The notes under the pieces were generated by a model. The model saw nothing but the letters and a program-made list of their open reading frames with translations. It made no database searches and had not been told where the DNA came from. This document shows positions 3,714 through 30,474 of a DNA stretch of 35,425 nt, piece after piece. Origin of the DNA: a virus; the IMG/VR virus record IMGVR_UViG_3300021962_000318, positions 1 to 35,425 of that record, one strand, 5' to 3'. The translations under genes were made by a program, and so were the position numbers. Each line of letters opens with the position of its first letter. Position 1 is the first letter of the stretch.

Positions 3714-5036
3714 TTATTTGGAAGTATCGTTTTTTCCAGATACGTCTTTTTTGATCTTTTGCATCGCCTGGTATGCCATATGTTTAACACGGCTCATAGG
3801 CGTATGTTTTGCTCCAGATTTATCTGTTGTCACAGCATTTGAAGATGTGTTGTATGGTGGTGCAAATGGAACATTGTCGGTTTCTGGCCTTTTTGATTCA
3901 TTTACCTTTTTATCAGTATCTTGTTCTGGTTTATCTTTTTGTTTTGAACCGCCGTAACGTGATCCCTGTTTTACACCAGATCCACCCGAAGGTTGTGGTC
4001 CACGTTTTGCTTTAACATCCTTCAACATATCATCCCAACCTTCTTCAACCTGTTCGACTTCTTCTTTAGTTAAGCGATCAACTGCTTTGCTAATACCAGC
4101 ATGCCGTTTGATAGCAGCGTTTTGGAACCTCTTAGAGAGGTGTGCATTAGCAATTTTCATCTTTTCTGACTTTGCTCTTTTTGCAGCAATCTCAAAGTCC
4201 TTTGAAAGACTTCTAGCAGCTGATGCGTCCTTTGTAGCACTTTTAATATAAGATCCATATGTTTTCTTGTCAAGCTCATCAATTTGTTCAACTTCTTCTT
4301 TGGTTGGTTGTGGTTTAGTTGGTTTGCTAGGTTTTCTAGCTGCATATGTTCCCTCTGGAGCAGGTTTACCGCGAAGTTTTCTTGCCCATGCTTGCTGGCT
4401 TCGATTTTCAATACCTTCTTCTAGTTCAGCTTCTTCTTTGACTTTCTTTTGGCCACGAAGAATTGCAAAATCTTGACCGTCAATCTTGTTGTTTTTATTT
4501 TTGTCAATCTTGTGTTGTTTACCTTTGAGTTCTTCACTCACATGATTTCCACCACAAACACAGGGTTCTTCCATACATTCTGGGCAAATATCAGTTTCAA
4601 CTTCTTCTTTAGCATAGTAAGCGGCAAGAGCCATTTGTTTTCGTTTCTCTTTTGATTTTCCTTCAAATCTAGGATCATCAGAATGTACAAAATCGTGTAT
4701 GTAATCACCTGCTGATGCATCTTTGGATAAAATCTCCGAAATCATTTGGTCATAGATTGAATGTGTATTGTTGACTTCTTTGAATTGTCTGAGTGTGGCT
4801 TTTGGTTTGGTGATTTCTGTGGATTCAGATTTTAGTTTTACCTTTGTGCTTTTTCCATCAGAACCAGGTCCAACATCATCTTTTTGTTTTGTTGGTTTTC
4901 TTCCAGAAATAACATCCTTTGTTCTGACTTCAGGATCAATTGCTTCAACAACTTCGGTGTTTTGTTTTTTTACAGAATTTTCCAAAACCGATTTTATGGA
5001 ATCTGCAACAACGTCTTTTTTGTTAAGGTTGATCAT
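3714..5036 (-). CDS. Multi-module internal virion/scaffold-like protein with EF-hand-like loop and Cys cluster
   Basis: This 440-residue hydrophilic protein is built from short modules joined by linkers. Near residues 94-143 is a module of the type IYDQMISEIL...YIHDFVHSDDPRFEGKS...MALAAYYAKE, which I recall from other T4-like phages. Residues 151-161 form a CPEC...CVC cluster that may bind zinc. Residues 178-189 (DKNKNNKIDGQD) match an EF-hand or dockerin calcium loop. Acidic motifs recur at about 201-208 (EEAELEEG), 247-255 (EEVEQIDEL) and 325-333 (EEVEQVEEG). Two of them end in [LV]-E-E-G, close to the [LI]-x-E|[GA] cleavage rule of the T4 prohead protease gp21. The protein could be a processed core polyprotein; that is inference. 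Confidence 0.7.
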   Translation of the reverse strand: MINLNKKDVVADSIKSVLENSVKKQNTEVVEAIDPEVRTKDVISGRKPTKQKDDVGPGSDGKSTKVKLKSESTEITKPKATLRQFKEVNNTHSIYDQMISEILSKDASAGDYIHDFVHSDDPRFEGKSKEKRKQMALAAYYAKEEVETDICPECMEEPCVCGGNHVSEELKGKQHKIDKNKNNKIDGQDFAILRGQKKVKEEAELEEGIENRSQQAWARKLRGKPAPEGTYAARKPSKPTKPQPTKEEVEQIDELDKKTYGSYIKSATKDASAARSLSKDFEIAAKRAKSEKMKIANAHLSKRFQNAAIKRHAGISKAVDRLTKEEVEQVEEGWDDMLKDVKAKRGPQPSGGSGVKQGSRYGGSKQKDKPEQDTDKKVNESKRPETDNVPFAPPYNTSSNAVTTDKSGAKHTPMSRVKHMAYQAMQKIKKDVSGKNDTSK

Positions 5037-6859
5037 TTTTTTACTGCCTTTTTTCTTTTTATTGTGTTATAGGTATAACCTAATTTGTCTTTGGGGTTCT
5101 CTATTGGTTCTTTATTATCCGATCCACTCAATGTACCTCCAAAACCCGATTCTTGGTCATTTTGGAATCCATTATATTCACCAATCAATTTTCTAAAATT
5201 ACTAAAATTCTTTTCTTCTCTGTAAGTGACATCGCCTAATCCAGACATAGGGTATACTGTTCCCTGCTGGCGAGTATCAAATTCAGGACCGACTCCTGCC
5301 ACATTTCTAATTCTTTGATTAACTGTGGGTGAATCGGTGTATCTGTTCTTTTTATTTTTTACTTTTTCTTTGTCTTGCCTGAAGTTGCTTTCTTTTGGTT
5401 CTGGGTAGACTTTGACCGACCCTTTTTCTTCGTTGTATGTTCTAAAGGTGTAACTTCCTCGGCGTTTTGGGGCGTTCCACTTGATGTTGTCACTGTTATT
5501 GTCTCCTGCACGGTTGTCGGCTGGGATGTCTCCAGGACTATCTGCTTTTGGACCACTTCCTCTTTTGAGTTCTGGTTCGTCAGGTTTTCTTCTGCTTTCT
5601 TTGAGCTTCTGAACAAATTTAAAATTTTCTGTAACATAATTTTCTTCCTCAATAAAAGAACGATTGATAATAGTATTTAGCTTACCGTGATTTTCTAACC
5701 AAAAATAAGCTTCTTCATTCAAAATCTTAATGTCAATAAAGTCATTAATTTTAAGGTATATATCTGAAATGTCCTCTTCAATTTCTTCCAATAAACCACT
5801 ATTGTTTAGATTGATAAAATGTTCGAATTTGTTTTGGTATACTTTTTTGCTTTCCTGTGATTGTTTCCACTTTTTCTGTCTTGTAGACTCTGTAACCATT
5901 TTTACCAGTTTTTCGTTGCGTTCTTTACTTGTTTCATTGGAAGTTTCAACAAAAACCATTAGAGTGTCATATCCCAATTCTTCAAGTTCCTCTTTAATCC
6001 AGAAAATTTCTGTTTGTTTATCTGCTGGTCCATTGATAATTAAAGGTTTTCGACTTCTGATAGATTCTTTACGCAAATCATTACTTTTTTCTGATAATTT
6101 TTGTTTATCTGATAGATATTCAAAAGCTTGTACTAGGTTAATTTCTGTCATTTTTTGTTCTGGAATGGCTTCACGTAAAATTACATCTTTACCAGAACCA
6201 GGACCGCCAGTGACAAACACTGCTTTGAACATTCCACGAATAACATTTTCATTTATTCCCATTCCTCGGCGAACATCACGAAACAATTCTTTGGCGTGTG
6301 TGTCTGGAACATGACTCGGAACACCCTGTCTAAAAGAAGTGAAATCATTATTTTTTGCGTGTTCTCTCATTTTTGATGCTGACATACCCTCAGCACCTTC
6401 TGCATCCGGATCACGTTGTCCGGCAGATTTAACTTCTATCTTTTTGAAGTTGAATAGTGATCCTTGAGCGGTTCCATTGTATTGTTTCAGTTTTTGTTCA
6501 TACTCTTTAACTCTGTCGGATCCGGCCACCATAATCAAATGATCATGTCCTTGCTGAAACAATTTGGCTGCATGTTGCAAAAAAGTTGGATGTTCTTTAC
6601 TAGAAGTTTCAATATTTGTTTCTGGAAAGAATCGTTTGGTGTGTTTTAATTTTGCTTTTGGATTTAGTGGATTTTTTTTAGTATCAACCGAATGTGAAAT
6701 TATAACTTTGTGGTCTGCACCATAATCGTTCGCTATTTCATGTACTCTATTTACAAGTTTTTCGTGACCTATCGTAGGCGGATTCATACGGCCAAAAGCC
6801 ATAACCACTGGTCTTTCGGTTTTTGATTCGTCCTCTAATCTCTGTAAAAATGACTTCAT
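5033..6859 (-). CDS. Bifunctional nucleotidylyltransferase (HxGH family) / P-loop kinase-like protein
   Basis: This is a 608-residue protein. After a capsid-targeting-like start (MKSFLQRLEDE), residues 18-165 form a class I nucleotidylyltransferase domain with GRMNPPTIGH at 23-32 and the downstream MSASKMR signature at 159-165. Both are as in NMN and other adenylyl/cytidylyltransferases. Residues 213-340 form a P-loop domain (GGPGSGKD at 218-225). The order NTase then P-loop recalls NadR, the NMN adenylyltransferase/ribosylnicotinamide kinase, but the substrate cannot be read from sequence. The last ~170 residues are polar and disordered-looking, with many Pro, Arg and Asp. The stop overlaps the next start by ATGA. 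It lies in the late block with other capsid-targeted candidates. Confidence 0.8.
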   Translation of the reverse strand: MKSFLQRLEDESKTERPVVMAFGRMNPPTIGHEKLVNRVHEIANDYGADHKVIISHSVDTKKNPLNPKAKLKHTKRFFPETNIETSSKEHPTFLQHAAKLFQQGHDHLIMVAGSDRVKEYEQKLKQYNGTAQGSLFNFKKIEVKSAGQRDPDAEGAEGMSASKMREHAKNNDFTSFRQGVPSHVPDTHAKELFRDVRRGMGINENVIRGMFKAVFVTGGPGSGKDVILREAIPEQKMTEINLVQAFEYLSDKQKLSEKSNDLRKESIRSRKPLIINGPADKQTEIFWIKEELEELGYDTLMVFVETSNETSKERNEKLVKMVTESTRQKKWKQSQESKKVYQNKFEHFINLNNSGLLEEIEEDISDIYLKINDFIDIKILNEEAYFWLENHGKLNTIINRSFIEEENYVTENFKFVQKLKESRRKPDEPELKRGSGPKADSPGDIPADNRAGDNNSDNIKWNAPKRRGSYTFRTYNEEKGSVKVYPEPKESNFRQDKEKVKNKKNRYTDSPTVNQRIRNVAGVGPEFDTRQQGTVYPMSGLGDVTYREEKNFSNFRKLIGEYNGFQNDQESGFGGTLSGSDNKEPIENPKDKLGYTYNTIKRKKAVKK

Positions 6860-22038: not shown

Positions 22039-22046
22039 TATAAATA
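22039..22046 (+). promoter_or_regulatory. T4-type late promoter octamer TATAAATA (rightward)
   Basis: A perfect TATAAATA on the plus strand lies 58 bases upstream of the first gene of the rightward block. It is preceded by the divergent leftward gene and followed by a ribosome site (AAGGA) before the ATG at 22105. It suggests that the exported proteins are made late, with virion proteins. Confidence 0.7.
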
Positions 22047-22104: not shown

Positions 22105-22620
22105 ATGTACAAAAAGGCAGCAATCGCTGTGCTTTTTGTTATGTCTACATCAACATGGGCTACAGACCCAATCGTAACTGACTCGACCAGCAGAAGCACA
22201 AGCACTTCCACATCAGAAACCAGAGTAATCTCTCCGCCACCAACAGCAGTGGCTCCAGCAATCACATCTATCAATAATGATGTCTGTGTTACGGCAGCAT
22301 CAGGCGCAGTACAAACACAGATTCTTGGTATCTCTATGGGTGGTACAATTAGAGATATGAATTGCGAAAGAATCAAACTATCTAAAAATCTTTATGATAT
22401 GGGTATGAAAGTAGCAGCAGTTGCTACTCTATGCCAAGATGATCGTGTATTCCAAGCCATGCTAGATGCTGGCACTCCTTGTCCAGTTATGGGTAAAATC
22501 GGCGAGCAAGCAAAAGAAATTTGGGTTGCTCGTGGTCGTGTAGGTGAAAAAGATATTGTAAAACAAACGCCAGAAAAGGCCAAAGAAGAACCTCTTAGAG
22601 ATTCTGGAAAGAAAGAATGA
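22105..22620 (+). CDS. Exported phage protein with four conserved cysteines, unknown function
   Basis: This is a 171-residue protein with a clear Sec signal peptide (MYKKAAIAVLFVMSTSTWA, cleavage after residue 19). A Thr/Ser-rich linker follows, then a compact domain from about residue 55. That domain has Cys residues in NDVCVTAASGAV, IRDMNCERIKLSKNLYDMG, VATLCQDDRVF and AGTPCPV, enough for two disulfides in the periplasm. The tail is very charged. I recall similar proteins in T4-like marine phage genomes but know no function. The stop overlaps the next start by ATGA. Confidence 0.75.
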   Translation: MYKKAAIAVLFVMSTSTWATDPIVTDSTSRSTSTSTSETRVISPPPTAVAPAITSINNDVCVTAASGAVQTQILGISMGGTIRDMNCERIKLSKNLYDMGMKVAAVATLCQDDRVFQAMLDAGTPCPVMGKIGEQAKEIWVARGRVGEKDIVKQTPEKAKEEPLRDSGKKE

Positions 22621-22961
22621 AAAAACTACTGATGACAATAATGATGGCTTTATTGTCATCGACAGCATTTTCAGATGAAATCTTTAGAGAGCCACGAGCA
22701 AAACCAGGACTTGAAAAAGTAAAGTTTGATGCTTTCTGTGGGAATGGTGATAAAATGGCACAGGTAGTGGATCACTATAAAGAACGTGCCATGATTGATT
22801 TTAAATCTCAAAGAATTATCAACGGCGAAGTTATGACATTTACTGCTGTGTTATTTGCTAATCCGAAAGATGGTTCTTGGACATGGATTGAAAAAATAAC
22901 AGACGATTCTTATTGTATTATTTCTACTGGTGATAGAATGACTCCTCATGTGCAAAAATGA
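22617..22961 (+). CDS. Small exported protein, unknown function
   Basis: This is a 114-residue protein with a Sec signal peptide (MKKLLMTIMMALLSSTAFS). The mature part is about 95 residues with two cysteines (DAFCGNGDKM and DDSYCIIS), which could form one disulfide. A mixed strand pattern (EVMTFTAVLFANPKDGSWTW) suggests a small folded domain. ATGA overlaps join it to the genes on both sides, so the three exported proteins are probably made in step. Confidence 0.7.
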   Translation: MKKLLMTIMMALLSSTAFSDEIFREPRAKPGLEKVKFDAFCGNGDKMAQVVDHYKERAMIDFKSQRIINGEVMTFTAVLFANPKDGSWTWIEKITDDSYCIISTGDRMTPHVQK

Positions 22962-25285
22962 TAAAAAGAATTGCGCTAGTGTTATTGTTTCTTGCTGGTT
23001 CAGTATTTGCTGAAACCACAGACAATCTCATTACGTCTCCGCTATCACCAACTGTAAATGCTACTGCTCCTGCTGGGTACTCTGGTGGCAGTACTGCTGG
23101 ATACAACTCATCGACCAATACATACTATTTTGGTTATACACAACAAGTTTTAGCAACAACGATTGCTATCAATAACGCATTACAAGGTAGTGGTGTACAA
23201 GTTGGTGGTGTTCAATATGGTATGCAATATTTGAATGGTGGTGATAGCTACGGTACACTAAGTTTAGGAGTAAATGTCACCAGTGCAGCTGGCGCAACTC
23301 TACACTCATACTCTCATTCATTTAATACACAAAATGCTGCTTGGCAGACATTCGATCAAACACAGACATTCACCAATCCATATACATTGGCTAACCTAGG
23401 TAATGTATCGATGTCGATTACGGGTCAAGACTCTCGCTTTTGGGCAGGTTATTATGGACCACAAGTTAGAAATCCTTATTTAAGATTAACATACACACCA
23501 GAAACACCTGTAGTAACAACACCTACATTTTACGATGATACCTATGCCCCAGTTCCCCTACAGTTTGGATTTCCATTTTATGGTAGAACATTCACTAACT
23601 CTTGGATGCACTCTAATGGTGTTGTTTCATTCTTAGATCCAGCAGTTCCTATTCCTGATGTTGGAAACAATCCAGGTGCATGGGCATATTGTTGTGGTGA
23701 TAGACCAACAACTACTAAACCTCAATTTCAATACATAATTGCTCCATTGTGGACTGATTTATATGCAACATCTGATTCTTCGTTTAGAACAGAAGGAACA
23801 TCCACATATCAAAAGTATTACTGGAATAACCTTGGTGAGATTAGCAACACCAGCAACAAAAATACATTCAGCTTAGAACTTCGTCCGTCTGGTTATCTTG
23901 GTGTTAACTACACACAGATTAACATGAATCAGACTGCATGGATTGGTACTGTTGGAAACCCAGCAGCTGGTGAAATTAATGAAGTGTTCTATGGCCAACC
24001 TGGTATCGGCAACACGGCAGGCATTGTAAATTGGTATATGAACAGCACTCCAGTTGGTGATCTTTGTTTGATTAACCCTCTATCATCTACCAGTTGTGCT
24101 GGTTATGCTGATGCAATGTGCGCTGCCAATCCATTGTATTCAACTACCTGTTCGGGGTATGCTGCTGCTTATTACAGTCAACAATGTACGGCTAATGCCT
24201 TATATGATCCTGGATGTCCTGGTTATGCCTCAGCATATCTTGATTATCAATGTTCACTAAACGCATTGTATTCAACTTCTTGTAAAGATTATCAACAGGC
24301 ATACCACAACCAACAATGTTCGTTAAATCCACTATATGCAACAGATTGCACTGGCTATCAAACGGCAGCAACACAATGCTCTGCCAATCCTCTGCTTTAT
24401 ACCTACTGCCCAAGTTATGAAACAGCAGTTTCTGATTGCACAACAAATGGATTGACACACAGTTATTGTCCATCATACACATTAGAAGTTCAACTCTGCA
24501 CAACCAATCCTCTGAGCAACACACTATGTTCTGGATATGCTACTGCATCTCAGGTTTGTTCAAACAATCAACTAACATATACTTACTGCCCATCGTACAC
24601 AACCACTCTTGCTTCTTGTGCGACCAATCCACAATCGAATACACTATGCCCAGGATACAGCACAGCAAGTACTTCTAATTCCACAACGACTGCATCAACA
24701 TCAATTACACAAGCTGCACCTTCAATTGGTAGTGATGGTACCGTGACAACAACAGTATCTTCTACAGGAAGTTCGACAGTAGATAAAGCAATCACATCAA
24801 CAACTACTACAACCAATACAGCTGCAGCACCTGCGGCTCCAGTTCAGTTAGTTCAAGCTGCTCCTGCTGCAGCTGCTCCTGCTTCACCACAAGCAGTGCA
24901 AGGAGGAGAACAAAAGAAGGAGACCAAGCAAGATGACATGGCTAAACAGGAAACCAAGAAAGAAGAATCCACCCAAACCGCATCTGCGTCCACACAGAAC
25001 AAAACCGATTCAGGGTCCGCCAGTGGAGGAAAATCAGAAACCAAATCAACCAGACAACAAATAGCAGAAAAGCGAGCAGAGGCAAGACAAGTAGCTGCAA
25101 GACAAGCAGGTAAAGAAGCAACAGAAAAGATGGATAAGGCGAACTCTTTAGAAGCACAAATTGCAGTTCAGAATGTTGTTGTTGCTGCAATGGGGTTTGT
25201 TCCAGGGTTTCAAACATATAGTGTCATTATGCCTGATGGTGTAGGTTATAAACCTCATAGTGTTTATAACAACCAAAAAATGTAG
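22958..25285 (+). CDS. Large exported protein with nidogen-like domain and ten Cys-rich repeats
   Basis: This is a 775-residue protein. A signal peptide (MIKRIALVLLFLAGSVFA) is followed by a beta-rich domain (about 20-180). A domain resembling NIDO (about 188-350) comes next, with FGFPFYGRTFTNSWMHSNGV near its start. Residues 370-571 hold ten tandem units of 18-22 residues with the pattern C-x2-N-x-L-x4-C-x2-Y. Then comes a Ser/Thr/Ala/Pro-rich stretch, a charged helix (about 690-730) and a C-terminal GFVPGFQTYSVIMPDGVGYK segment. The frame ends at TAG in an A6 run, but the -1 frame stays open to 25368, see the separate entry. Extracellular adhesion or a surface/virion fibre role is inference; I know no characterised homologue. 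Confidence 0.8.
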   Translation: MIKRIALVLLFLAGSVFAETTDNLITSPLSPTVNATAPAGYSGGSTAGYNSSTNTYYFGYTQQVLATTIAINNALQGSGVQVGGVQYGMQYLNGGDSYGTLSLGVNVTSAAGATLHSYSHSFNTQNAAWQTFDQTQTFTNPYTLANLGNVSMSITGQDSRFWAGYYGPQVRNPYLRLTYTPETPVVTTPTFYDDTYAPVPLQFGFPFYGRTFTNSWMHSNGVVSFLDPAVPIPDVGNNPGAWAYCCGDRPTTTKPQFQYIIAPLWTDLYATSDSSFRTEGTSTYQKYYWNNLGEISNTSNKNTFSLELRPSGYLGVNYTQINMNQTAWIGTVGNPAAGEINEVFYGQPGIGNTAGIVNWYMNSTPVGDLCLINPLSSTSCAGYADAMCAANPLYSTTCSGYAAAYYSQQCTANALYDPGCPGYASAYLDYQCSLNALYSTSCKDYQQAYHNQQCSLNPLYATDCTGYQTAATQCSANPLLYTYCPSYETAVSDCTTNGLTHSYCPSYTLEVQLCTTNPLSNTLCSGYATASQVCSNNQLTYTYCPSYTTTLASCATNPQSNTLCPGYSTASTSNSTTTASTSITQAAPSIGSDGTVTTTVSSTGSSTVDKAITSTTTTTNTAAAPAAPVQLVQAAPAAAAPASPQAVQGGEQKKETKQDDMAKQETKKEESTQTASASTQNKTDSGSASGGKSETKSTRQQIAEKRAEARQVAARQAGKEATEKMDKANSLEAQIAVQNVVVAAMGFVPGFQTYSVIMPDGVGYKPHSVYNNQKM
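24065..24670 (+). repeat. Ten tandem Cys-rich protein repeats, about 60 bases each
   Basis: These bases encode residues 370-571 of the exported protein. Each unit has two Cys spaced by 9 residues, an Asn three after the first Cys and a Tyr three after the second. Units 1-5 resemble each other most (NPLYSTTC type) and units 6-10 form a second subtype (TYCPSY/TLCSGY alternating), as if the array grew by duplication of single units and of pairs. Confidence 0.85.
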
Positions 25286-25368
25286 ACAATGCTAGAATGA
25301 TGAGAGGCTTATCAGGAGCCTCAGATAGATTACATGAGGAGATGGTAGCTTCACAATATAATAGATAA
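25276..25368 (+). pseudogene. -1-frame C-terminal extension of the Cys-repeat protein (frameshift tail)
   Basis: Just where the main frame stops, the -1 frame is open and reads KNVDNARMMRGLSGASDRLH and then EEMVASQYNR before TAA. It fills the otherwise empty gap and ends one base before the next start codon. The change of frame lies in an A6 run (25275-25280) directly before the TAG. Either ribosomes slip -1 there, or one A has been lost. A short hairpin (GAGGCT/AGCCTC) follows about 20 bases downstream. There is also a small ATG-started frame (25297-25368), but without a ribosome site. Confidence 0.55.
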
Positions 25369-25369
25369 A

Positions 25370-25855
25370 ATGATCGATCCTGTCTCAATTGGTCTTGCGT
25401 TTGCTGCAGCACAAAAGACTGTAAGCACAATTAAGCAAGCAGTTGCGATGGGTAAAGATGTAAACTCATTATTTAATCAGTTCGCACATTTTTTTGAAAA
25501 TAGTGATAAGATTCATGCTGAACACAATAAGATTAAGGCTGGCATAACTGAGTTAACTGACGGACAGATTCGTGCAATGAGTTTGCAGATTGCTATGCAA
25601 AGCAAGCAACTCAGGGATGCTGAAGTCGAATTGAAAAATTTGTTAGTGTGGAGTGGCAACAAAGATGTTTGGGACGAAATGCAGCGTGAACGTGTTCGTA
25701 TGTTTAAAGAACGCCACGAAAGAGAAGAAGCAGCTAAGAGAGCAAAAGCAGAAGGGCACATGGCAGTGATTGACAAAATTTTATTATGGATTTGTTTTGC
25801 CGTAATCGTCTTTCCAATTTATGGTTTTATTTTATACGGAATGACTAGTAAATAA
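25370..25855 (+). CDS. Conserved phage protein with C-terminal membrane anchor
   Basis: This is a 161-residue protein. The opening MIDPVSIGLAFAAAQKTVST is weakly hydrophobic and is followed by a long amphipathic helical region (about 50-125) rich in Glu, Lys and Arg. A single strong membrane segment then spans residues 137-158 (LLWICFAVIVFPIYGFILYG). I recall similar 'MIDPISIGLAFAAAQ' proteins from T4-like marine phages, always as hypotheticals. It lies directly after the Cys-repeat protein and before two other small membrane proteins. The C-terminal anchor and position make a cell-envelope role likely; a holin or antiholin role is possible but unsupported. Confidence 0.7.
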   Translation: MIDPVSIGLAFAAAQKTVSTIKQAVAMGKDVNSLFNQFAHFFENSDKIHAEHNKIKAGITELTDGQIRAMSLQIAMQSKQLRDAEVELKNLLVWSGNKDVWDEMQRERVRMFKERHEREEAAKRAKAEGHMAVIDKILLWICFAVIVFPIYGFILYGMTSK

Positions 25856-25856
25856 C

Positions 25857-26012
25857 ATGATAGAAACAGCATTCATATTAGGATTTTTTACTGCGATGGG
25901 GTGGTGGACCGCAGGAAAAGTAACAAAACAAGTAGATAAGTTAATTGATCCACCTGCAATAGTTCAAAAACAAGAAAAACAAAAGGAAGAAGAAAATGGG
26001 AGAAGAAATTAA
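25857..26012 (+). CDS. Small single-span membrane protein (51 residues)
   Basis: I translated this from the sequence: MIETAFILGFFTAMGWWTAG, then KVTKQVDKLIDPPAIVQKQE and a short Lys/Glu-rich end. One membrane helix is followed by a charged tail. The start lies 2 bases after the previous stop and the end overlaps the next gene by 17 bases, so it fits the coding run well. It is shorter than many gene-finding limits. The function is unknown; the size and shape suit a small holin-type or accessory membrane protein, which is only a guess. Confidence 0.6.
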   Translation: MIETAFILGFFTAMGWWTAGKVTKQVDKLIDPPAIVQKQEKQKEEENGRRN

Positions 26013-26616
26013 AGACGTCAATAAAAAGATTGATGACGCAGAAGCTGCTGTTAAAAAGTATGCTAGTAAAGATACTGTTATCAGCATTGGTGGTTATGAA
26101 TTTACACCAGCAAAACTTATGGTTGCTGCAACTTTAGTATCATCCATCCTTGGTGGTTTATATGGTGCATTTGAAGTGTACAAAGATTATGTCGGCATGA
26201 AGAAACGTATTGCCGAATATGTTGCACCAGATTTAACTGAATTTGATAAACGTCTTGAAGTCATTAACAAAGAAATGGCTTCAACCAAAGAAAATGTAAG
26301 TCAGGCAACCGAATATACAAATAATATTAAGAATGATTTGAAATCAGATATTCGTAGATTGGAAACTGTTGTTGATACTATTGAGAGGACAGGTAAGCAA
26401 TCTCAGCGTGATACTGATATCTCTGTCAAAGAGATGCAAGGCGAGTTGCGCCAAACACGTAAAGAAGTTACAACTGAATTAAATCAAACGAAAAGAGAAC
26501 TTTCTACTGATATGCATCAGGCAAGAAAAGAACTTGAACTTGGTTTAAAAGAAGTGAATGCTAATCTTGATAAGAAAATCCAACGTGCGCTGGATAATCC
26601 TTTGAGCAACAAATAA
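25996..26616 (+). CDS. Membrane-anchored coiled-coil protein
   Basis: This is a 206-residue protein. One hydrophobic segment (about residues 39-58, LMVAATLVSSILGGLYGAF) follows a short charged N-terminus. The last 140 residues form a long predicted coiled coil with repeated heptads (for example RQTRKEVTTELNQTKRELST and MHQARKELELGLKEVNANLD). AAGGAAGAAG precedes the ATG. It closes the rightward block. It could be a spacer or tether in the envelope; no catalytic motif is present. Confidence 0.65.
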   Translation: MGEEIKDVNKKIDDAEAAVKKYASKDTVISIGGYEFTPAKLMVAATLVSSILGGLYGAFEVYKDYVGMKKRIAEYVAPDLTEFDKRLEVINKEMASTKENVSQATEYTNNIKNDLKSDIRRLETVVDTIERTGKQSQRDTDISVKEMQGELRQTRKEVTTELNQTKRELSTDMHQARKELELGLKEVNANLDKKIQRALDNPLSNK

Positions 26617-26696: not shown

Positions 26697-26933
26697 TTAT
26701 TTTTGCATTTCTGCTGTGATATGGTCTTCCAAATCACCTAGTGTGTTCATTTTATCCAAAGCTTCATCTGGAATAGAGACATCAAATTCTTCTTCCAGAA
26801 AAACCAAATATTCCATAAAACTCATACTATCAAAGCCTAATCCTTCATTTCTAAAGATAGTTTCTCTTGTCATGTCTGAACTGTCAATTTCAAATTTATC
26901 TTTCAGTACATTTTTCATTCTCTCTAAAACCAT
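26697..26933 (-). CDS. Acyl carrier protein
   Basis: This is a 78-residue acidic, all-helical protein of normal ACP length. The phosphopantetheine site is GFDSMSF with Ser36, at the start of helix II, followed by the acidic recognition helix (EYLVFLEEEFDVSIPDEALD). AGGAG lies before the ATG. It sits between two tRNA genes, with no fatty-acid or polyketide enzyme in the window. In a phage it must depend on host holo-ACP synthase to be active. It could supply or divert acyl groups for lipid, lipid A or other acylation; which one cannot be read. The ACP call itself is secure. Confidence 0.88.
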   Translation of the reverse strand: MVLERMKNVLKDKFEIDSSDMTRETIFRNEGLGFDSMSFMEYLVFLEEEFDVSIPDEALDKMNTLGDLEDHITAEMQK

Positions 26934-30030: not shown

Positions 30031-30474
30031 TTAATCCTTTTTTTCCTTGATTGAAATTTTCTTAATCAGGTCTTGACTTTTCAGAGGATTTTGCAACCAA
30101 ATTTTCAACATACCGTTGGTCAATTCGGCATCCTTAATTTCAATTTTATCCGCCAATTTAAATTCGCGGTTGAAATTTCTATTGGCAATACCTTTGTGTA
30201 AGAAAGTTCCCTCCTCGATGGTTGATTCCTTCACAGAACCTTTAACAATCAGATTATTACCCTCTAAGGTAATATCAATGTCAGATTTTGAAAAGCCAGA
30301 AACGGCCAATTCAATAACATAATTATTTTCATCAATTTGCCGAATGTTGTAGGGAGGATATCCGCCGATGTGTTTGTTTTCAACCATTTCCTGTAAATCT
30401 TTGAAAACGGTATCAAAACCAACAACAAAGGGGTTCAATTTATTTAAATTGAAAGAGTGAGTAAGATAAGTCAT
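30031..30474 (-). CDS. Small heat-shock protein, Hsp20 family
   Basis: This is a 147-residue protein. The alpha-crystallin domain runs from about residue 42 to 135, with YNIRQIDENNYVIELAVSGF and the conserved GILxIxLP-type end here read as GMLKIWLQNPL. It prevents aggregation of unfolded proteins, probably during virion protein overproduction. Hsp20 genes are frequent in T4-like phages of aquatic bacteria. AAGGAG precedes the ATG. The 125-base leader upstream has a strong RNA structure, described separately, and the gene ends in its own terminator, so it is a single-gene unit or the end of the RegA unit. Confidence 0.9.
   Translation of the reverse strand: MTYLTHSFNLNKLNPFVVGFDTVFKDLQEMVENKHIGGYPPYNIRQIDENNYVIELAVSGFSKSDIDITLEGNNLIVKGSVKESTIEEGTFLHKGIANRNFNREFKLADKIEIKDAELTNGMLKIWLQNPLKSQDLIKKISIKEKKD

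Follow-up and report, generated by a model that had tools for sequence, protein, structure and literature searches.

Gene organization of the locus

The window, that is, the whole stretch of DNA analysed here, is a virus record of 35,425 bases whose replication genes mark a T4-like phage. Genes for DNA polymerase, UvsX, a DnaB-like helicase, the clamp and the clamp loader are located on its minus strand. Adjoining the polymerase gene, on the plus strand, lies a module that contains three genes, which we call A, B and C. The features of this module are listed in Table 1. A previous sequence-only reading had drawn attention to gene B because of its ten Cys-rich repeats and a NIDO-like domain in front of them. 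These elements are present, but the description of the gene was incomplete: it missed an FBA/CBM-like domain, the signal peptide, the C-terminal tail and its truncation, and the three-gene module as a whole.

Table 1. Positions of the features of the A-B-C module in the window
Feature	Position	Strand	Description	Basis
Late-promoter-like motif	22039..22046	+	T4-type, TATAAATA, about 60 nt 5' of the gene A start codon	
Gene A	22105..22620	+	171-aa secreted protein; invariant C61, C87, C110 and C126	phrog_20531
Small gene between A and B	22617..22961	+	114-aa small secreted protein	weak phrog_18760
Gene B	22958..25285	+	secreted, 775 aa; made up of a lectin-like region, a NIDO-like region, Cys repeats, a linker and a C-tail	
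Gene B, signal peptide	22958..23011	+	MIKRIALVLLFLAGSVFA	read from sequence
Gene B, N-terminal domain (NTD)	23012..23509	+	FBA/CBM-like beta-sandwich (lectin-like)	AF2 model, profile match, motif
Gene B, NIDO-like domain	23510..24061	+		hhalign against bacterial PF06119, AF2
Gene B, repeat array	24065..24658	+	ten C-x2-N-x-L-x4-C-x2-Y units	pattern, family comparison, AF2
Gene B, linker	24659..25135	+	Thr/Ala/Ser/Pro-rich, then Lys/Glu-rich	composition
Gene B, C-terminal tail	25136..25285	+	conserved, shortened by frame change	alignment of ten relatives
Gene downstream of B	25370..25855	+	161-aa protein with C-terminal membrane helix	phrog_32327
Gene C	25996..26616	+	206 aa; a single N-terminal membrane helix precedes a long coiled coil	

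A signal peptide was called by a heuristic in 111 of the 114 complete proteins of gene B and in 152 of 154 gene A proteins, versus 378 of 1759 control ORFs. Of 145 gene C proteins, 141 were found by a hydropathy heuristic to contain a membrane helix. Judged from its composition, the linker of gene B is probably disordered or helical.

The frame of gene B in the window ends with YNNQKM at 25285, a few bases past six consecutive A (25275-25280). The conserved C-terminal ending of the family (NVDNARMMRGLSGASDRLHEEMVASQYNR) is found in the neighbouring frame, the stop codon of which (25366-25368) is located just 5' of the next gene. Some relatives have seven A at this site and keep the frame. From its sequence, the copy of gene B in the window thus looks damaged or misassembled at the tail. 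The frame change may be due to mutation, assembly error or slippage.

Structure of the Cys-repeat unit

All ten repeat units were located. The array comprises residues 370-567 of the gene B protein, and the units start at Cys 370, 388, 410, 432, 454, 474, 494, 514, 534 and 554. The spacing from start to start is therefore 18, 22, 22, 22, 20, 20, 20, 20 and 20 residues, which agrees with the two subtypes and the unit length of 18-22 residues that had been described: the 22-residue subtype is found at the front and the 20-residue subtype at the end. The Asn is kept in all ten units and the Leu in nine (unit 10 has Gln). When the array region was shuffled 5000 times, the mean number of pattern matches was 0.4 and the maximum was 4.

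The first Cys (C1), the second Cys (C2) and the Tyr are set by the search pattern, so that their conservation carries no evidential weight. Other positions are informative. That is, among 652 units of 22 residues in the family, Ala17 was kept in 646, Gly13 in 638 and Gln22 in 636. Furthermore, all Cys residues of the window array fall inside the unit pattern, and none of 120 distinct arrays had an odd number of Cys. The distance from one Cys to the next across the arrays was 10 (882 cases) or 12 (664 cases). The C1-C2 spacing is nearly fixed, and the spacing from C2 to the next C1 is variable and takes most of the deviations. These results fit the earlier proposal that each unit could close one 11-residue disulfide loop.

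Structure prediction of the gene B protein, covering the NTD and the array, was also carried out. The AlphaFold2 (AF2) model, made from an alignment of 72 family members, had a mean pLDDT of 87, with values of about 69-93 for the array blocks. It predicts one helix of about 8-12 residues per unit, which starts at the Tyr and usually ends at or just past the next C1. Because the helix runs from the Tyr to about the next C1, a C1-C2 bond would close the loop between helices, and the C-x9-C pair of each unit would thus staple the loop between two helices in this model.

The unit had no match in Pfam, PHROGs or the sequences of the PDB. As had been suspected, it appears to be a new unit outside the described families, as far as sequence comparison can indicate. 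One candidate, the VirG insertion domain (VID), was rejected: it matched a single relative with 20.5 bits against a cut-off of 27, and was absent from the window protein.

Head domains of the gene B protein

The NTD portion of this AF2 model was compared with solved structures. The best match was the sugar-binding domain of Fbs1/Fbs2 (2e31; VIA Z 13.2, rmsd 2.9, 145 residues), followed by domains of phage tailspikes (Z 10-11) and CBM16 (Z 9.9). A profile made from eleven NTDs and searched against the PDB also found F-box only protein 6 (FBXO6) with an E value of 2.8e-5, via the motif GkD-x-x-F-W-a-G-x-y-G-P-x-V. The corresponding motif in the window NTD is D-S-R-F-W-A-G-Y-Y-G-P-Q-V. In the family, 80 of 86 NTDs have the motif D-x-x-[aromatic]-W-x-G-x-[YF]-G-P, and an aromatic residue stands before the Trp in 74 of those 80. 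The F-W pair reportedly takes part in sugar binding in Fbs1.

The NTD did not reach the gathering cut-off of the Pfam FBA family (PF04300), its score being 13 bits (E 0.089) against 32.4 bits. It should thus be regarded as a relative of FBA and not as a Pfam member. FBA domains are lectin-type, galactose-binding-like domains (PMC3210139). The phage NTD shares with the FBA domains of Fbs1/FBXO2 and Fbs2/FBXO6 the beta-sandwich and the motif D-x-x-[FY]-W-x-G-x-[YF]-G-P. In contrast to FBA proteins, the protein bearing the phage NTD has no F-box, is secreted and is encoded by a phage. The likeness in fold and motif, which is not proof, suggests that the NTD may bind sugar.

The block between the NTD and the array had been read as NIDO-like. 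This assignment was supported by profile comparison and not at the Pfam threshold. That is, hhalign gave a probability of 92.2% (E 5.8e-7, 118 columns) against six bacterial PF06119 domains, and negative controls gave 0.1% and 0.3%, whereas the Pfam NIDO model (PF06119) had no match at any E value up to 10 in the window protein, in ten aligned relatives or in the isolated block. The block shares with the NIDO domain the pattern F-G-x-x-[FY]...SNG-x-[VI]-x-F...D...N-x-F-x-[IVL], but differs from it by an additional conserved Cys pair. In the window, the sole cysteines of the gene B protein outside the array, C245 and C246, are located in this block. The AF2 model of the block had a pLDDT of 90 and a pTM of 0.90. 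Its best match among solved structures had a VIA Z of 5.8, and the Foldseek E values were 0.5 or more; a sequence search found no NIDO domain in the PDB, and the absence of a structural match for this predicted fold does not show that the fold is new.

Distribution of the family and variation of the unit number

Relatives were sought in IMG/VR with the gene B protein, its alignment, the repeat alone and gene A. The search with the repeat alone gave at least 504 confirmed stretches of viral contigs, and that with gene A gave at least 596 confirmed matches; 80 from each were taken forward. Among 398 Pseudomonadota genomes only one matched the repeat, and the other 397 gave no match. The matching contig, CALMJT010000228.1 (L013), belongs to an Alteromonadales metagenome-assembled bin, bears A-B-C together with a GH19-like gene, and is probably derived from a phage.

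The 197 loci contained 143 ORFs in which the unit occurs at least three times. The plan of the repeat ORFs is nearly universal: the NTD, the NIDO-like domain or both are followed by the array, the linker and the conserved tail. Each of the six large records tested had one repeat ORF; the sole addition was a very weak match that contained stop codons. The comparison of repeat number among relatives, which had been proposed as a check, gave 0 to 14 units in the complete nonredundant members (n=136), of which 14 had one unit and 12 had none. The repeat number is thus freely variable. The single-unit forms sit in contigs of 331 and 352 kb. At the DNA level, adjacent units were slightly more similar to each other (0.61) than distant units (0.56), and individual pairs reached 0.91; this fits a gain of units by local duplication.

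The family is spread among aquatic phages, in contigs of up to 352 kb. A tblastn search of cultured phages with gene B of the window and of two relatives (L006 and L129) gave nothing significant, and the Cys-repeat form of B is thus known here from metagenomes only. No pertinent paper came up in our literature search, which covered nidogen or NIDO domains of phages, cysteine repeats of marine phages, and pelagiphage spanins. The computation shows a large, undescribed family encoded by phages, which consists of modular proteins with a signal peptide and the Cys-repeat unit, and which belongs to a conserved A-B-C module.

Conservation of the A-B-C module

Gene A was located upstream of B in 95 of the 108 nonredundant loci with room for it, in most cases at a distance of -9 to +4 nt. 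Gene C was located downstream of B in 108 of 114 loci. The 13 loci counted as lacking an upstream gene A are at least in part an artefact of the filter; at L028, for example, there is a gene A (4234-5280), which shares 65 nt with the called start of B. The small protein between A and B is also present in a near-identical contig (L010), and nine loci have a look-alike, as judged by eye. The 161-aa protein of the phrog_32327 type is a recurrent neighbour of the module (26 loci).

Unlike the Cys-repeat form of B, gene A was found in cultured Pelagibacter and Roseobacter phages. In the pelagiphages, directly after A or one small ORF further on, there is a secreted-looking B-like protein with another N-terminal domain and a Glu-rich linker, and its gene is followed by that of a protein with a membrane segment plus a coiled coil. 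The N-terminal domain is CBM-like in HTVC033P, HTVC202P, Baldr and S28-C10. The CBM4/9-headed proteins (HTVC033P gp45, BAQ94057) resemble B in the signal peptide, the carbohydrate-binding-like head, the long linker and the position between A and C. They differ from B in that a Glu-rich linker takes the place of the Cys repeats and that the C-terminal part has only a distant likeness. In view of these Glu-rich linkers, the Cys array seems to be one of several spacers that can replace each other and that separate a carbohydrate-binding-like head from the tail.

Two further groups of small proteins were noted around the module. At some loci (L171, 4872-5375; L174, 6386-6883; L194, 3308-3805) a secreted protein of about 165 aa, with a pilin-like or spore-coat-U-like look, follows A in place of B. 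Downstream of the module, a family of small membrane or secreted proteins occurs at L148 (7931-8209, motif RYPCQNPDNWDKP) and 41 other loci; the L148 protein had no match in Pfam or PHROGs.

Timing of expression and genomic setting

The single match to TATAAATA, the core of the T4 late promoter, in the window is within chance when taken alone. Among 156 loci, however, the coding strand had the motif in the 150 nt 5' of gene A in 33, ten times as often as in shuffled sequence (mean 3.3, maximum 8), compared with 6 loci for the opposite strand. The motif is thus present at only about a fifth of the loci. In the window the module runs opposite to the replication genes, as the late genes of T4 do. 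The motif and this orientation suggest that the module may be expressed late. Gene A was not found in HTVC027P, a phage with a published infection transcriptome.

In S28-C10, HTVC202P and Baldr, the genes A, B and C directly precede terL or are separated from it by no more than a few small ORFs. In T7, this place is occupied by the genes for the Rz/Rz1 spanins. A lysozyme, an amidase or an M15 peptidase is encoded no more than a few genes away from the module in HTVC033P, HTVC023P, CRP-207, CRP-810 and ctXG6705, and a GH19-like gene is nearby in 16 metagenomic loci, adjoining A in two of them (L081 and L170). In the window and in Mosig, the neighbours of the module are replication or nucleotide genes, and no lysis gene adjoins it. 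Taken together, the terL and hydrolase neighbours and the late motif favour a late envelope function and, of such functions, lysis.

Possible functions of the module

The structure of the gene B protein and the A-B-C module are well supported. As to their function, our tentative choice, which we hold with somewhat less than even confidence, is a late glycan-binding complex across the host envelope, most likely an accessory of lysis. According to this proposal, A, B and C would be synthesized late in infection and exported to the periplasm, where their disulfide bonds would form. B would be the glycan-binding member of a three-gene envelope module, and the array would be its modular stalk. The head of B may bind a glycan of the envelope; by analogy with Fbs1/Fbs2, our first guess is a glycan of the GlcNAc type, in either peptidoglycan or LPS. 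The length of the stalk would set the reach of B, and the C-terminal tail may link B with A or with C as the membrane-anchored partner. The complex would then bridge the inner membrane, the wall and the outer membrane, and would help to open the envelope as a lysis accessory.

The known system to be compared is that of Rz/Rz1. The predicted membrane helix and coiled coil of C may be comparable to those of this system, and in T7-like phages A-B-C stands at the Rz/Rz1 place before terL. In contrast, the module has no lipoprotein partner and no significant sequence match to spanins, and B is far larger, is secreted and has sugar-binding-like heads. Gene C gave only weak PHROG matches to spanin families (E 0.03-0.12). 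A lipobox was found in 6 of 114 B proteins, with a loose pattern, and in none of 154 A proteins, and B is thus not a classical o-spanin. A bolder version of our proposal is that A-B-C is a new lysis module, that is, a disulfide-stapled, length-adjustable, glycan-binding bridge across the Gram-negative envelope that does the work of spanins in a large part of the aquatic phages, small podoviruses and jumbo phages included, and whose heads are exchanged to suit the envelope glycans of the host. We consider this version rather unlikely in its full extent.

How marine phages open the envelope of SAR11-type hosts is poorly known, and A-B-C is a specific candidate for this step. Cultured pelagiphages with A, B-like and C proteins exist, so that the candidate can be tested. 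The gene B protein would also represent the use by phages of an F-box-type lectin fold of eukaryotes, together with a NIDO-like domain, on a repeat stalk that is presumably stapled by disulfides.

The foremost alternative is receptor masking or superinfection exclusion, in which B, anchored to the envelope, would cover or occupy surface glycans with its lectin-like and NIDO-like heads, and would thereby block the adsorption of a second phage or spare the released progeny from loss on debris. The secreted, lectin-like heads are swapped among phages (NTD only, NIDO only or both) while the tail and the partners are constant, and such swapping would be expected if the heads track the host surface. 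On the other hand, exclusion proteins are mostly small and early-acting, and the upstream motif suggests late expression of the module. We think that masking is unlikely.

It is also conceivable that the module remodels the envelope or causes aggregation, by keeping the wall of the infected cell intact or by sticking cells or debris to surfaces, with no direct role in lysis. The layout of NIDO, Cys repeats and a Thr-rich region resembles that of adhesion proteins; the sequence-only reading had likened the NIDO-like domain and the repeats to eukaryotic adhesion proteins rather than to phage fibres. We saw no sign of a fibre-like virion protein. The likeness to adhesion proteins is confined to the layout. 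The very wide spread in aquatic phages, up to contigs of 352 kb, would agree with such a role. The long membrane-anchored coiled coil in the operon and the frequent endolysin neighbours suggest disruption of the envelope instead, and we place remodelling just after masking among the unlikely readings.

A role of B in the virion, as a decoration or adhesin of the particle for glycans of the host or the environment, is more doubtful still. Tailspikes, in which CBM and lectin domains are common, are among the fold matches of the head. However, the signal peptides of A and B would remove both proteins from the cytoplasm, where virions are assembled, the disulfide-rich repeats suit the periplasm, and no match to a tail or head family of PHROGs rose above noise. 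Finally, a short unit and a region dominated by few kinds of residue might point to a chance or low-complexity stretch of Cys and Tyr with no fold. This idea is refuted, practically beyond doubt, by the shuffles, the conservation across the 652 units and the even Cys counts; the model, which is confident over most of the array, also speaks against it.

Other genes in the window

Three other genes of the window were noted. The minus-strand ORF at 26697-26933 reads like an acyl carrier protein and may encode one, and an Hsp20 gene (phrog_432) is located at 30031-30474. The minus-strand gene at 5033-6859 encodes a protein of 608 aa with a weakly cytidylyltransferase-like N-terminus (Pfam E 5.7e-4) and a possible AAA or kinase part.
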